Source of the DNA: Flavobacterium orientale
GTDB taxonomy: Bacteria > Bacteroidota > Bacteroidia > Flavobacteriales > Flavobacteriaceae
Assembly: GCF_014638005.1 (NCBI RefSeq)
Contig: NZ_BMFG01000001.1
Coordinates: 62,001-126,000, forward strand
Length of the DNA: 64,000 nt
Reading direction: 5' to 3'
Position numbers and translations under genes: made by a program
Part shown: piece after piece, positions 60,644 to 63,895 of the stretch
Layout of the letters: each line of letters begins with the position of its first letter
How positions within the stretch are numbered: the first letter of the stretch is position 1
The notes under the pieces: generated by a model
The model's input: the letters and a program-made list of their open reading frames with translations, nothing else
Databases searched by the model: none
Told to the model about the DNA's origin: nothing

Positions 60644-60672
60644 TTGAAAAACCTGATTTTTATATATTTTTG
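60644..60672 (+). promoter_or_regulatory. Promoter of the xrtF operon
   Basis: TTG (60644-60646), an 18-base spacer and TATTTTTG (60665-60672) match the consensus. It shows that the TTG at 60670 cannot be the start codon of xrtF. Confidence 0.72.
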
Positions 60673-60687
60673 TTAAAAATCAATCCA

Positions 60688-61245
60688 TTGAAAAACTATT
60701 TTACGCAATACAAACCCTTTTTGACTTTTTTGGCTAAATTCTTTTTGACTTATGCTGTTTTGACACTTCTTTATCAGTATTATTTGAGTCAATATGATGT
60801 GGCTAAAAATGAAAACGATCGATTTACGGAGGTAGTTGCCTCACAAACTCAAAAAACAATTATTTTTTTTGGACATTCGAGCGAAATTCAACCACATGAA
60901 TCGGAACCGTCTTATAAACTATTTGTAAATCAAAAATATGTTGCCCGAGTTGTTGAAGGATGTAATGCAGTAAGTGTTATGATTTTATTTGTTGCTTTTG
61001 TTTTGGCTTTCAAAGGAAAATTAATCACAACTATGATTTTTAAACTTTCCGGTTGTTTACTAATTCATCTCTTAAATATAATTAGAATTGCATTGTTGTC
61101 AATCGCATTGTTTTACTATCCACAACATGAGCATATTCTTCATGGGGTTATTTTCCCTTTAGTAATTTATGGCGTTGTATTTTTATTGTGGATAATTTGG
61201 GTCAATAAATTTTCTGTTTATGCTAAAACAACTTCAACAAGATAA
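60688..61245 (+). CDS. xrtF: Exosortase family protein XrtF
   Basis: Multi-span membrane cysteine protease/transpeptidase of 185 residues. The triad of the exosortase/archaeosortase family is intact: C92 in VVEGCNAVSVM, R133 in NIIRIALL and H152 in HILHGVIFP. About six membrane helices are visible. The open frame reaches back to a TTG at 60670, but that is part of the promoter. The next in-frame start is the TTG at 60688, which gives the family N-terminus KNYFTQYKPFLTFLAKFF. XrtF-type enzymes are found in Flavobacteriia with a small partner gene, which follows here. Their substrates are not well defined. Confidence 0.87.
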   Translation: MKNYFTQYKPFLTFLAKFFLTYAVLTLLYQYYLSQYDVAKNENDRFTEVVASQTQKTIIFFGHSSEIQPHESEPSYKLFVNQKYVARVVEGCNAVSVMILFVAFVLAFKGKLITTMIFKLSGCLLIHLLNIIRIALLSIALFYYPQHEHILHGVIFPLVIYGVVFLLWIIWVNKFSVYAKTTSTR

Positions 61246-61669
61246 AAAAGGATTTTTCATTCTATTGCTTTGTGTAATTGGTTTTGCACTTTTGCGTAAT
61301 TATGAAACAGTATTGTTTTATGATCCATTTTTAAATTATTTTAAAAATGATTACCTCAATTTGCCATTTCCTGATTACAATTCTTTTGAGTTGTTTTGGA
61401 ATTTATTATTGCGATATCTATTAAATACATCCCTCTCATTGCTTATTTTATATGTGATTTTTAAAGACATACAACTTATAAAATTCGCAACGATTCTTTA
61501 CTTGCTTTTATTTTTTCTATTAATTGTAGCCTTTTTTATTATATTACAGTTTTTTGATGAAAGTTATAATTTTTTGTTGTTTTATATTAGAAGATTTCTA
61601 ATTCAACCTTTGTTTTTACTCTTATTTATACCTGCTTTTTACATTCAAAAAAACGCTGATTCCGAATAA
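61220..61669 (+). CDS. Exosortase F system-associated membrane protein
   Basis: Hydrophobic protein of 149 residues with about four membrane helices (near 12-28, 56-80, 84-112, 120-142). It has the conserved NYFKNDYLNLPFPDYNSFELFWN loop (about 39-61). No catalytic motif is visible. It overlaps xrtF by 26 bases and is the partner protein seen next to XrtF in this group; it may position the enzyme or its substrate. Assignment rests mainly on the neighbour and membrane pattern. Confidence 0.78.
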   Translation: MLKQLQQDKKGFFILLLCVIGFALLRNYETVLFYDPFLNYFKNDYLNLPFPDYNSFELFWNLLLRYLLNTSLSLLILYVIFKDIQLIKFATILYLLLFFLLIVAFFIILQFFDESYNFLLFYIRRFLIQPLFLLLFIPAFYIQKNADSE

Positions 61670-61702: not shown

Positions 61703-62533
61703 ATGAAAGTTACAAAATTTTCCGGTGAGTTGGTGCGTTTTGACAGGGAAAAACTTAAACATTCCTTATTAAAATCAGGTGCAAACGACAAAATAATCAG
61801 TCAAGTAATGTACGAGATTGAAAAAGCATTGTATGAAGGTATTCCAACTAAAAGGATTTATAAATTGGCTTTTCAACTTTTAAAAAGTTTTTCAAATGTT
61901 CATGCGGCACGTTACAATTTAAGAAAAGCGATTCAAGATTTAGGACCTGCTGGTTTTTATTTTGAAAAATACATAGCCAAACTATTTGAATTTGAAGGTT
62001 TTCAAACCAAAACAAATCTAATTTTAGAAGGAAAATGTGTTAGTCATGAAATTGATGTGGTGATCAAACAAAACAATCAAATTGCAATGATTGAATGTAA
62101 GTTTCATGGCAGTCAAGATGCTAAAACAGATGTAAAAGTGCCCATGTATATTCTTTCTCGTTTCAATGATTTAAAAGACAAAAAAATACAACTCTTTAAT
62201 GAAAATGAAAGTATTGAAAAGTGCTGGATAATTTCTAATAATCGATTTACTGAAGACGCCATCAAATTTGGTTTGTGTTGCGATTTGAATCTTTTAAGTT
62301 GGGATTATCCGTTTGAAAATGGTTTAAAAAATAAAATTGACAGTTATCAAATGTATCCTGTAACTTGTTTGACAACTTTAACACGATTAGAAAAAGACAA
62401 GTTGTTAATGCAGGACATTATAACGGTGAAGGATTTGATTAAAAAACCAATTTGGTTGTCTAAAATTGGTTTGAGCTCCAATAGAATAAATAACATACTT
62501 AAGGAAGCAAACGAATTGTGTAATCATATATAA
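61703..62533 (+). CDS. ATP-cone domain fused to a PD-(D/E)XK nuclease-like domain
   Basis: Cytoplasmic protein of 276 residues with an unusual composition. Residues 1-80 form an ATP-cone (VTKFSGELVRFDREKLKHSLLKSG..., ending HAARYNLRKAI), the nucleotide-sensing module of ribonucleotide reductases and NrdR. Residues 85-205 resemble an Mrr-like restriction-endonuclease fold: E88, D118 in SHEIDVV, and E131-x-K133 in IECKF. Residues 238-272 (TVKDLIKKPIWLSKIGLSSNRINNIL) look like a helix-hairpin-helix nucleic-acid-binding end. It may be a nuclease whose activity is set by ATP or dATP levels. The next gene, six bases on, is a beta-CASP RNase-like protein. Function is inferred. Confidence 0.72.
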   Translation: MKVTKFSGELVRFDREKLKHSLLKSGANDKIISQVMYEIEKALYEGIPTKRIYKLAFQLLKSFSNVHAARYNLRKAIQDLGPAGFYFEKYIAKLFEFEGFQTKTNLILEGKCVSHEIDVVIKQNNQIAMIECKFHGSQDAKTDVKVPMYILSRFNDLKDKKIQLFNENESIEKCWIISNNRFTEDAIKFGLCCDLNLLSWDYPFENGLKNKIDSYQMYPVTCLTTLTRLEKDKLLMQDIITVKDLIKKPIWLSKIGLSSNRINNILKEANELCNHI

Positions 62534-62539
62534 ATTACT

Positions 62540-63895
62540 ATGAAAATTCAATTTTTAGGAGGAACAGGAACGGTAACAGGCTCAAAAACACTTATTGAGC
62601 ATAATGAACTGCGAATTTTAGTTGATTGCGGGATGTTTCAAGGTGTCAAAGCCTTGCGAGAGCTGAACAGAACACCTTTGGCCGTTGCACCTGCAACCAT
62701 AGATTTTGTTTTGCTAACCCACGGTCATCTCGATCACTGTGGTTGGTTGCCATTATTAGTAAAGAATGGATTTAAAGGAAAAATATTTTGTACCGCTCCA
62801 ACCAAACAAATTGCAAAATTAATTTTAGCCGATAGTGCCAAAATCCAAGAAGAAGAAGCATCAAAAGCCAATCAGGAGCATTTTTCTAAACACAATCCGG
62901 CAGAACCTCTGTATACCGTTACCGATGCAGAGCAAGTAACTTCATTTTTTAGAGTGGTAGAGAAGGACCTGCAAATCCGCCTATCAGAAGATGCCTTTTT
63001 TTCCTTTTTTCAAGCCGGACATATTTTAGGTGCTTGTTCAATTTCGTTGTATGTTGATGGAAAAGAGTTTGTGTTCTCTGGTGATATTGGTCAAGATGAT
63101 GATGTTTTGATGTATCCGCCACAAAAACCGAAATCAGGAGATTTTATATTCTTAGAAAGTACCTATGGTAATAGAATTCATCCTGAAACAGATGTTTATT
63201 TTGAGTTAGAAAATATCATCAATGAAACTGTTGCAAAAGGAGGAAACCTAATTATTCCAAGTTTTGCGGTAGAACGAGCTCAAACGTTAATGTATTTGTT
63301 GTGGCAGTTAAAAAAACAGAATCGAATTCCCGATATCCCTTACATTATTGATACCCCAATGGGAATTAAAGTTATTGATGTGTTTAATGAAAATTTCAAA
63401 TGGCATAAATTAAATCCTCACGAGTGTGAAGAAATGTGTAGCATGTTCACAATGATTTCTGACTTTGAAGATTCTATTGCAGCAATTTATAGTAAACAGC
63501 CTAAAGTTGTAATAGCCGCAAGCGGAATGATTACCGGCGGCAGGGTGTTATCTTATCTTGAAAGATATATTGATAAACCAGAGAACACAGTAATGCTGGT
63601 AGGTTATCAAGCAGAGGGAACGCGTGGTAGAAAACTTTTAGACGGTGATAAAGAAATTAAATTTTTTGGCAAATATTATACTGTAAACGCAAGAGTTGTT
63701 TTGGTTGAAGGACTTTCTGCTCATGGAGATCAAAATGATTTACTAAATTGGTTGAAAGAACTACAAGCTCCACCCAAATTGATTTTTATGGTTCATGGCG
63801 AAAATGAAGCTGCCGATGCCTTACGATTAAAAATAATGGAAACATTTAATTATGACTGTAAAGTGCCACTATTGGGTCAAATTATTGAAGTTTAA
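62540..63895 (+). CDS. MBL-fold beta-CASP RNase-like protein (RNA-specificity domain)
   Basis: Metallo-beta-lactamase/beta-CASP protein of 451 residues, the family of CPSF73-like and YSH1-like nucleases. The zinc motif is H61-x-H63-x-D65-H66 in LLTHGHLDHCGWL. Further ligands are in QAGHILGACSI (about 159-169) and FSGDIGQDDD. The beta-CASP part (about 205-390) includes FLESTYGNR (motif A) and VIAASGMITGGRVLSYL. The C-terminal RMMBL segment has VEGLSAHGDQNDLLNWL (His ligand). It is probably an endo- or exonuclease on RNA. It is six bases after the ATP-cone nuclease gene and likely co-transcribed. Confidence 0.88.
   Translation: MKIQFLGGTGTVTGSKTLIEHNELRILVDCGMFQGVKALRELNRTPLAVAPATIDFVLLTHGHLDHCGWLPLLVKNGFKGKIFCTAPTKQIAKLILADSAKIQEEEASKANQEHFSKHNPAEPLYTVTDAEQVTSFFRVVEKDLQIRLSEDAFFSFFQAGHILGACSISLYVDGKEFVFSGDIGQDDDVLMYPPQKPKSGDFIFLESTYGNRIHPETDVYFELENIINETVAKGGNLIIPSFAVERAQTLMYLLWQLKKQNRIPDIPYIIDTPMGIKVIDVFNENFKWHKLNPHECEEMCSMFTMISDFEDSIAAIYSKQPKVVIAASGMITGGRVLSYLERYIDKPENTVMLVGYQAEGTRGRKLLDGDKEIKFFGKYYTVNARVVLVEGLSAHGDQNDLLNWLKELQAPPKLIFMVHGENEAADALRLKIMETFNYDCKVPLLGQIIEV

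Follow-up and report, generated by a model that had tools for sequence, protein, structure and literature searches.

The ATP-cone is a domain reportedly defined in an early paper and known as the off/on switch of ribonucleotide reductase (RNR); its fold is common to NrdR, NrdA and NrdD. The AF1548 family (PDB 1y88; PF22357 and PF04471) includes AF1548 and marine homologues which were predicted to be restriction endonucleases in a 2007 report (PMC1821046). The 1y88 chain as deposited lacks an ATP-cone and begins within the nuclease domain; the native AF1548 gene may or may not encode a cone. In Can2 and Card1 of type III CRISPR systems a nucleotide-sensing CARF domain is joined to a PD-(D/E)XK nuclease, and TTHA0252 and the type VII protein Cas14 belong to the beta-CASP group. 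No paper on an ATP-cone nuclease was found in the open-licence literature.

In the window, which is the whole stretch of 64,000 nucleotides of Flavobacterium orientale that was analysed, an ATP-cone is fused to a predicted nuclease whose active-site residues are intact. The protein, of 276 aa, consists of an ATP-cone, a Mrr-type PD-(D/E)XK nuclease and an AF1548-type tail, and its gene adjoins one encoding a beta-CASP RNase (Table 1). It has the cone fold of NrdR and NrdA/NrdD, but carries it on a nuclease. It would work like Can2 and Card1 and matches their nuclease fold, although its sensor is an ATP-cone whereas theirs is CARF, a domain that was not found in it. The fusion of these three domains is already present in databases and is not new there.

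Table 1. Coordinates of the features at the nuclease/RNase locus (positions in the window)
Feature	Position	Strand	Details
Exosortase family protein XrtF, upstream, co-directional	60670-61245	+	TIGR04128 232.9 bits; context only
Exosortase F system-associated membrane protein, separated by 33 bp from the nuclease gene downstream	61220-61669	+	TIGR04127 143.8 bits; context only
Nuclease gene, ATP-cone / PD-(D/E)XK (Mrr_cat) / AF1548-like_C	61703-62533	+	ORF, 276 aa
ATP-cone domain, residues 1-70	61703-61912	+	Pfam PF03477 29.5 bits, cut-off 25.8
Mrr-type PD-(D/E)XK nuclease domain, residues 85-189	61955-62269	+	Pfam PF04471 27.4 bits, cut-off 21
AF1548-like C-terminal domain, residues 218-272, HhH-like	62354-62518	+	Pfam PF22357 31.6 bits, cut-off 23.9
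Beta-CASP metallo-beta-lactamase RNase gene, directly downstream	62540-63895	+	451 aa; Pfam Lactamase_B, Beta-Casp, RMMBL

The Pfam domain calls on both proteins were above the curated cut-offs, and in a genome-wide search PF03477 scored 31.7 bits for the 276-aa protein. Its AlphaFold2 model (pLDDT 92.9, pTM 0.89) aligned with AF1548 (1y88) with a Z of 23.3 over 183 residues (rmsd 3.0), the nuclease and C-terminal domains being those that align, and phmmer placed the same match at residues 81-272 (E 2.2e-29). Residues 1-73 of the model aligned with the ATP-cone of Escherichia coli NrdR (9gex_D; Z 10.6, 73 aligned, rmsd 1.6), and NrdA cones were a further structural match. The fusion of an ATP-cone to a Mrr-like nuclease, first proposed from the letters alone, was in this way recovered by profile and by structure, both for the cone and for the PD-(D/E)XK fold.

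The signature Glu...Asp...(Glu-x-Lys) of PD-(D/E)XK enzymes is present in the nuclease domain. E88, D118, E131 and K133, which the original prediction had named as intact, stand at those positions and do not vary in any of 17 alignment rows, nor in any of the 166 distinct sequences (the query counted) that fit the family model at E 1e-40 across 220 or more positions. The cone is also conserved in these 166 sequences, with Lys5 in 165, Lys17 in 162, Thr or Ser at position 49 in 156 and 10 respectively, and Tyr53 in 162. In E. coli NrdA the nucleotide is contacted by Lys9, Arg10, Lys21, Thr55 and His59. When equivalence is judged by eye, the counterparts of Lys9, Lys21 and Thr55 are conserved, His59 is replaced by Tyr, and Arg10 is not conserved, variable residues taking its place across the nuclease family. 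Moreover, the cone of this family mostly starts with Lys-x-Ser/Thr-Gly, whereas the Lys-Arg-Asp/Asn-Gly start of NrdR and NrdA/NrdD is seen in the two other cones of the window's genome. As Lys5, Lys17, Thr/Ser49 and Tyr53 are conserved, gating of the predicted nuclease by nucleotides bound to its cone is plausible.

The tail had been described as helix-hairpin-helix-like, a label that seems to fit only modestly. When residues 200-276 were modelled alone no Foldseek match was obtained at E <=0.001, the best being 1y88 (E 0.014) and RAD51. VIA-align gave modest scores, with a Z of 9.3 to 1y88, of 8.3 and 8.0 to N-terminal domains of the RAD51 family and of 6.8 to NusA. The structural neighbours of the nuclease include AspBHI, MspJI, EndoMS and a repair endonuclease of Pyrococcus abyssi, and the nuclease fold and the tail together look more like those of DNA enzymes. 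These likenesses, the Mrr-type domain and the chief known role of ATP-cones, which is to switch RNR in response to ATP and dATP (PMC4390871), are consistent with a role in DNA repair or genome maintenance gated by dATP/ATP, in which damaged or modified DNA would be cut when dNTP pools shift. Nevertheless the partner is an RNase-type beta-CASP protein and no repair gene was found among the recurrent annotated neighbours, many neighbours being unannotated, which makes this role rather improbable.

The RNase has the motifs HGHLDH (61-66), GH (160-161), SGD (180-182) and SAH (393-395), and its nearest solved structures are Cas14 (E 3.7e-67) and TTHA0252 (E 2.2e-65). Identification as type VII Cas14 was rejected, the equivalog cut-off being missed (403.9 against 800 bits). 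In contrast to Cas14, this RNase adjoins a nuclease and lies outside any recognised CRISPR locus; family annotation of six neighbours in the window showed no Cas gene, and no CRISPR genes were found among the annotated neighbours. The ORF coordinates agree with the six bases claimed earlier between the nuclease stop and the RNase ATG.

The pairing of the two genes is supported as a conserved unit. In a sample of 296 Bacteroidota genomes the RNase lies directly downstream of 33 of 54 nuclease genes (a number that excludes three matches to the ATP-cone only and the latter part of a gene that is split in G396), and the 36 closest beta-CASP genes include 33 with the nuclease directly upstream, the exceptions being in G119, G277 and G385. 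None of the next ten beta-CASP genes has the nuclease directly upstream. Among named loci, scanned with patterns derived from Bacteroidota, an adjoining RNase was present in 69 of the best 80 of at least 591 confirmed loci, with a frame break in two of the 69 (L083 and L099). The adjacency is therefore not limited to the window's genome, and the pairing that had been suggested from one locus holds in both directions. The pair is not obligatory, since 21 of the 54 nucleases have no adjoining RNase. This absence, and the unrelated genes that surround the pair in the window, would suit two genes brought together by chance or shared history and having no joint function. However, the association is two-way, the genes lie only 2-61 bp apart in 32 of 33 pairs, and the pair is carried by divergent families and by a Chlamydiota plasmid (Criblamydia). 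Adjacency also changes nine times against 19.4 for shuffled labels, on a quick tree in which 19 of 61 forks are open, near-copies inflate the contrast and L109, with its RNase 3.2 kb away, is labelled adjacent. This account is very improbable, the least probable of the explanations considered. Here the evidence for spread beyond Bacteroidota consists of the AF1548 structure and the Criblamydia plasmid. MAGs titled Bifidobacterium, Nitrotoga and Lentimicrobium contain Flavobacterium-like loci and were not counted as wide spread.

The surroundings of the pair in the window are exosortase, PNPase and TonB-receptor genes, and no stress or fermentation markers were found at this locus. XrtF occurs in 9 of the 54 loci of the phylum sample, that of the window included; the exosortase genes are neighbours of the pair in some members of the genus, taken as context and not claimed as members of the system. 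In the Flavobacterium clade synteny is conserved, eight neighbour clusters each being found in 28-33 of 43 loci (among the best 80 of at least 591).

Around the relatives, stress and energy genes make up many of the neighbours that were annotated. Genes in these neighbourhoods were called with a crude ORF picker and labelled by blastp comparison with marker proteins, so that an unlabelled gene is unannotated and not absent. By blastp the 54 stretches contain 33 universal stress genes, where the content of the 49 genomes concerned would predict 2.4, an expectation that is high rather than low because the background consists of HMM domains, two of which are possible per protein; by blastp 39 of the 54 loci have no such gene. 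In a clade mate of the same genus (L192) the genes directly before the nuclease and RNase encode a PPDK/PEP-synthase-like enzyme, a PAS histidine kinase, a Crp-type response regulator and Hsp20. FNR and CRP palindromes were sought between the genes of 14 loci of the stress type and 9 of the exosortase type, and their numbers lay within the range of 100 shuffles (the loosest FNR form was seen twice against a shuffle mean of 0.8); a search for palindromes de novo in the stress-type loci returned A-runs only.

A defence-like response had been one of the options of the original prediction. The logic of a ligand-gated PD-(D/E)XK nuclease, Can2 among the Foldseek matches of the model and PADLOC cross-matches of the nuclease to CARF-PD-(D/E)XK and other CRISPR-linked models would fit an anti-phage system sensing changes in nucleotide pools, analogous to Card1/Can2. 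The PADLOC matches are weak and all lie within residues 60-174, and the candidate was rejected. Moreover, Pfam found no CARF domain, no relatives of the nuclease were found in phage records, and in IMG/VR none of 16 pattern matches was confirmed. The conserved synteny in the Flavobacterium clade and the stress and metabolic neighbours at other loci also argue against defence, which we regard as very improbable.

Some relatives have larger clusters. Archaeal AMP (NMP) phosphorylase is an enzyme of the pentose bisphosphate pathway, and some clusters carry an NMP-phosphorylase-like enzyme of the archaeal type (NF003338 and TIGR02645, both passed) together with a PRPP synthase. The enzymes miss the AMP phosphorylase equivalog TIGR03327 (506.5 and 498.9 against 535 bits), and for this reason their use of NMPs is only presumed. 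The Criblamydia plasmid has, in order, genes for a P-type ATPase, phosphoketolase, alpha-glucan phosphorylase, the ATP-cone nuclease, the beta-CASP protein, a thymidine phosphorylase family protein, PRPP synthase and acetate kinase, followed on the opposite strand by a glucoamylase; the phosphoketolase and the nuclease were checked by their domains. In the 296 genomes the archaeal-type phosphorylase was above cut-off in two, and both copies follow the nuclease and RNase; a third (G181) is a fragment with 428.4 bits against a cut-off of 434, placed apart from the nuclease of that genome. Outside the query's clade it was present in 6 of 37 named loci (among the best 80 of at least 591). The full enzyme was not found in the window's genome (best match 8e-9). 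The Pontibacter plasmid came from the nuclease search and not from the phosphorylase search.

A survey of plasmids for the phosphorylase gave 115 matching records, of which 11 among the matches listed were examined. An MBL-fold gene lies beside the phosphorylase or within two genes of it in nine of them, with 34-53% identity to the query RNase, and none was found near it in Variovorax SRS16 or Natronosalvus. The ATP-cone nuclease was present in one of the 11 (Criblamydia), and the nuclease and cone HMMs gave no match in 11 phosphorylase stretches of 10 plasmids (9 proteobacterial, 1 archaeal). One Variovorax plasmid encodes a fusion of the phosphorylase with the ribose-1,5-bisphosphate kinase PhnN. 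The plasmid clusters viewed differ from the archaeal pathway in that PRPP synthase is present and neither RuBisCO nor R15P isomerase is annotated. Similar enzymes are found in Bradyrhizobium diazoefficiens, where an MBL-fold protein, a PRPP synthase and a thymidine phosphorylase family protein, consecutively numbered, are induced by microoxia, as are a phosphoketolase family protein, universal stress proteins and a Cu P-type ATPase; no ATP-cone nuclease is named in the passages of that report that were considered (PMC6515984). A relative in B. septentrionale is 35% identical to the query RNase, to which bll3115 of B. diazoefficiens may also be homologous.

Because of these surroundings of the relatives, low-energy survival is preferred here to defence, and the quality control suggested by the original prediction misses the metabolic context. 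We propose, with a probability of roughly 0.42, that the pair is the cone-gated, nucleic-acid-degrading arm of a programme for survival under low oxygen or starvation. The ATP-cone would bind and read the adenine nucleotides of the cell; a drop in ATP, or a shift of the ATP/dATP or ATP/AMP ratio, would release cutting by the nuclease, whose chief substrate is probably RNA. The beta-CASP RNase would then trim the products to mononucleotides. In relatives with the full cluster the archaeal-type phosphorylase would convert these NMPs to ribose-1,5-bisphosphate, and PRPP synthase (or PhnN) would link this to phosphoketolase and acetate kinase for the gain of ATP. The species of the window has the nuclease and RNase only, and there the products would enter ordinary salvage. 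Several of the observations above speak against the proposal: the nucleases with no adjoining RNase, the many loci in which blastp shows no universal stress gene, the surroundings of the pair in the window and the lack of a full phosphorylase in its genome, the G181 phosphorylase placed apart from the nuclease, the phosphorylase scores below the AMP phosphorylase cut-off, the phosphorylase clusters that lack the ATP-cone nuclease, the likeness of fold and tail to DNA enzymes, the loss of the usual cone Arg and the FNR/CRP result. So does the narrow margin by which the cone on the glucoamylase, described below, matches the adjoining nuclease best.

An alternative is regulatory RNA decay, in which the two nucleases would reshape or stop translation, by turnover of mRNA, rRNA and tRNA, on entry into low-energy dormancy, the products being incidental. 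The same stress context fits it, and genes such as those for Hsp20 and universal stress proteins are typical of dormancy; the partner is closest to the RNase TTHA0252 and to Cas14, and no NMP-phosphorylase step was found in the window's genome. This account is possible but doubtful, as it leaves unexplained the linkage to phosphorylase, PRPP synthase, phosphoketolase and acetate kinase, and the presence of a cone on a glucoamylase. An extension of the survival programme, no less doubtful, would make RNA a fuel: as ATP falls the cone would release the nuclease, which with the beta-CASP RNase would degrade cellular RNA, and possibly DNA as well, to NMPs, and the archaeal-type phosphorylase, the PRPP synthase, phosphoketolase and acetate kinase would turn these into ATP. 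The closely related cone on the adjoining glucoamylase would then give one nucleotide switch for the mobilisation of two cell polymers.

If the gating by the cone is real, it would be a direct molecular link from the energy charge of the cell to self-digestion of nucleic acids, the old question of rRNA as a reserve in non-growing bacteria would become testable, and a non-CRISPR member would be added to the ligand-gated PD-(D/E)XK nucleases. The ATP-cone was seen once on a polysaccharide-degrading enzyme too, and the clusters contain stress, fermentation and nucleotide-phosphorolysis genes. In three genomes of one genus a small ORF follows the nuclease gene (the one copy scanned is glutaredoxin-like), and an ATP-cone/glucoamylase fusion comes next. 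The cone of this fusion has 55-57% identity to that of the adjoining nuclease and 22-33% to the two other cones of the window's genome, and its best match is, narrowly, the adjoining nuclease (E 1e-19, against 5e-19 for the nuclease of another genome).

The 276-aa product of the nuclease gene contains three domains scoring above the curated Pfam cut-offs, namely ATP-cone (1-70), Mrr_cat (85-189) and AF1548-like_C (218-272), which confirms the predicted fusion of an ATP-cone with an Mrr-like nuclease. The beta-CASP gene follows after six bases, and its 451-aa product also exceeds the curated cut-offs for its families. The residues E88, D118, E131 and K133, originally described as intact, are constant in all 166 distinct sequences compared, the query among them. 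In the cone Lys5 (165/166), Lys17 (162/166) and Tyr53 (162/166) are kept and position 49 is Thr (156) or Ser (10). Position 6 is variable across the family and is Arg in the two other cones of the same genome (L001 and L002). Judged from this conservation, the nuclease is likely to be active and the cone is likely to bind nucleotide, in a modified manner.

Positions of the features discussed (L-numbers are individual loci; plain numbers are window positions)
Feature	Position	Context
Exosortase XrtF and associated membrane protein	60670-61669	directly upstream of the nuclease gene
ATP-cone nuclease gene, 276 aa	61703-62533	same strand as beta-CASP gene; Pfam
beta-CASP gene, 451 aa	62540-63895	same strand as nuclease gene; Pfam metallo-beta-lactamase/beta-CASP/RMMBL
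ATP-cone/glucoamylase fusions	L149:10303-11883, L150:11299-12849, L221:1223-2773	beside ATP-cone nuclease
Criblamydia sequanensis (Chlamydiota) plasmid cluster	L147:5885-19950	phosphoketolase, alpha-glucan phosphorylase, ATP-cone nuclease, beta-CASP, phosphorylase, PRPP synthase, acetate kinase, glucoamylase
PhnN (ribose-1,5-bisphosphate kinase)/archaeal-type phosphorylase fusion	L183:5242-7395	Variovorax sp. SRS16 plasmid
Rhizobium rosettiformans plasmid p2 gene run	L226:4508-16001	arginine deiminase pathway, adenylate kinase, universal stress protein, P-type ATPase, PRPP synthase, phosphoketolase-family protein, beta-CASP, phosphorylase
ORF of about 90 aa	L012:2329-2610, L112:8816-9088, L154:9915-10193	between nuclease and beta-CASP

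An AlphaFold2 model built from a 17-row alignment (pLDDT 92.9) agrees with both assignments. By Foldseek and VIA-align its top match is AF1548 (Z 23.3, 183 aligned, rmsd 3.0), followed by PD-(D/E)XK enzymes, among them AspBHI (Z 12.0), and residues 1-73 of the model resemble the ATP-cones of NrdR (e.g. 9gex_D, Z 10.6, rmsd 1.6) and NrdA. The helix-hairpin-helix-like character claimed for the tail is borne out with modest scores: modelled separately (pLDDT 87.5), it matches 1y88 (Z 9.3), RAD51-family N-terminal domains (Z 8.3 and 8.0) and NusA (Z 6.8), and Foldseek gave no match for it at E 0.001 or better.

The protein aligns with AF1548 (1y88) over residues 81-272 (E 2.2e-29); the solved structure is without a cone, since the 1y88 chain starts within the nuclease domain. 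A 2007 prediction (PMC1821046) made AF1548 a restriction endonuclease. The domain combination is already recognisable in Pfam and NCBI names the relatives 'ATP cone domain-containing protein'; no publication on an ATP-cone nuclease or its gene neighbourhood was found among the open-licence papers searched. We rate this presumed ligand-gated PD-(D/E)XK nuclease as new in both its sensor and its setting.

The nuclease is present in 38 of 61 genomes of the genus sample, 50 of 120 of the family sample and 49 of 296 of the Bacteroidota sample (54 genes). In the last, 33 of the 54 genes have beta-CASP directly 3' on the same strand, with gaps of 2-61 bp in 32 pairs and 333 bp in one. Conversely, 33 of the 36 best-matching beta-CASP genes in these genomes lie directly 3' of a nuclease (exceptions in genomes G119, G277 and G385), against none of the next ten. 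The pairing suggested at the outset is supported as a conserved unit. Among the best 80 of 591 confirmed loci the genes are adjacent in 69, comprising 43/43 in the query's Flavobacterium clade (L043-L085) and 26/37 elsewhere. In the other 11 the contig ends early (2), the RNase diverges upstream (1) or lies 3.2 kb downstream (1), or no RNase occurs within the stretch (7). Mapped onto a quick tree for 64 nucleases, adjacency requires 9 changes, against 19.4 with shuffled labels.

The best reading of the pair is cone-gated breakdown of nucleic acid during low-energy survival, under low oxygen or starvation. With plentiful ATP the cone would hold the nuclease off; a drop in ATP, or a shifted ATP/dATP or ATP/AMP ratio, would allow cutting, and the beta-CASP RNase would then break down the fragments. 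RNA is the favoured substrate, because the solved structures nearest to the partner are those of RNases and because in some loci the pair stands beside NMP-phosphorolysis genes; DNA may also be cut, as the nuclease fold and tail resemble DNA enzymes.

Across the 54 nuclease stretches 33 universal stress genes were found, in 15 loci, against 2.4 expected from their frequency in the 49 genomes as a whole (503 domain matches). Other neighbours are Crp-type regulators (7 loci), GAPDH (7 loci), 2-hydroxyacid dehydrogenase (5 loci), Ppk2 (3 loci) and phosphofructokinase (2 loci). The archaeal-type phosphorylase, an NMP-phosphorylase-like enzyme of the thymidine phosphorylase family, exceeds the cut-off in 2 of the 296 genomes, and both copies come after nuclease-beta-CASP; a third, fragmentary copy just below the cut-off (genome G181) does not. 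Among the best 80 of 591 loci, those outside the query's clade have the phosphorylase in 6/37 and PRPP synthase in 6/37. The fullest cluster is on the Criblamydia plasmid, and a Pontibacter plasmid carries a shorter one. The phosphorylase was not found in the genome of F. orientale, so this species would hold no more than the degradative half.

Three genomes of one genus carry, after the nuclease gene, a small ORF (in the single copy scanned it is glutaredoxin-like, with a score under the Pfam cut-off) and then an ATP-cone/glucoamylase fusion. The L149 copy, the one scanned, scored 30.3 bits for PF03477 (cut-off 25.8) and E 4e-86 for PF10091. The fused cone shares 55-57% identity with that of the adjoining nuclease, 44-47% with the query's and 22-33% with the two other cones of the window genome. 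Its best non-fusion match is the adjoining nuclease, by a narrow margin over nucleases of other genomes. The fused cone probably arose as a copy of the cone of a nuclease in this family, and the copying may have taken place inside the operon. That another polymer-degrading enzyme of the cluster also bears a cone is, in our view, the strongest sign that the cone signals energy state to the breakdown of reserves.

Beta-CASP, phosphorylase and PRPP synthase also recur without the cone nuclease in the proteobacterial plasmids examined, in places with heavy-metal/copper P-type ATPases, universal stress proteins or Ppk2. The R. rosettiformans cluster adds a phosphoketolase-family protein, arginine deiminase, ornithine carbamoyltransferase, carbamate kinase and adenylate kinase, and looks like an anaerobic ATP-supply island. 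The PhnN fusion suggests that the phosphorylase yields ribose-1,5-bisphosphate out of NMPs. Moreover, the consecutively numbered Bradyrhizobium diazoefficiens bll3115-bll3117 (MBL fold, PRPP synthase, thymidine phosphorylase family) are reported in PMC6515984 as microoxia-induced, with protein log2 changes of 2.9, 4.4 and 2.1, respectively. The plasmid clusters, the fusion and this induction together suggest that a beta-CASP RNase of this kind is tied to low-oxygen ATP supply even without the cone nuclease.

The genes upstream of the window nuclease are exosortase XrtF (TIGR04128) and its membrane protein (TIGR04127), with no obvious functional link to it; beyond them, on the opposite strand, lie PNPase and rpsO (assigned by eye). 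Downstream of the pair are a HYC_CC_PP protein, a TonB receptor, an HMA protein and DUF2490. XrtF and PNPase occur with the nuclease in 9 of the 54 Bacteroidota loci. Another arrangement in the query's clade (L192) runs PPDK/PEP-synthase-like enzyme, PAS histidine kinase, Crp-type response regulator, Hsp20, nuclease and beta-CASP, with a universal stress gene also close by, and in two further loci (L198 and L225) a Crp-type regulator and a small gene precede the nuclease. The ORF intervening in some Flavobacteriaceae ends in CCGGH or CCGGN in the copies inspected, and its L112 copy had no Pfam match. Three loci from MAGs titled Bifidobacterium breve, Lentimicrobium sp. and Candidatus Nitrotoga (L046, L059 and L077) are 58-63% identical to the Flavobacterium-like query, and these are probably mislabelled or contaminated bins.
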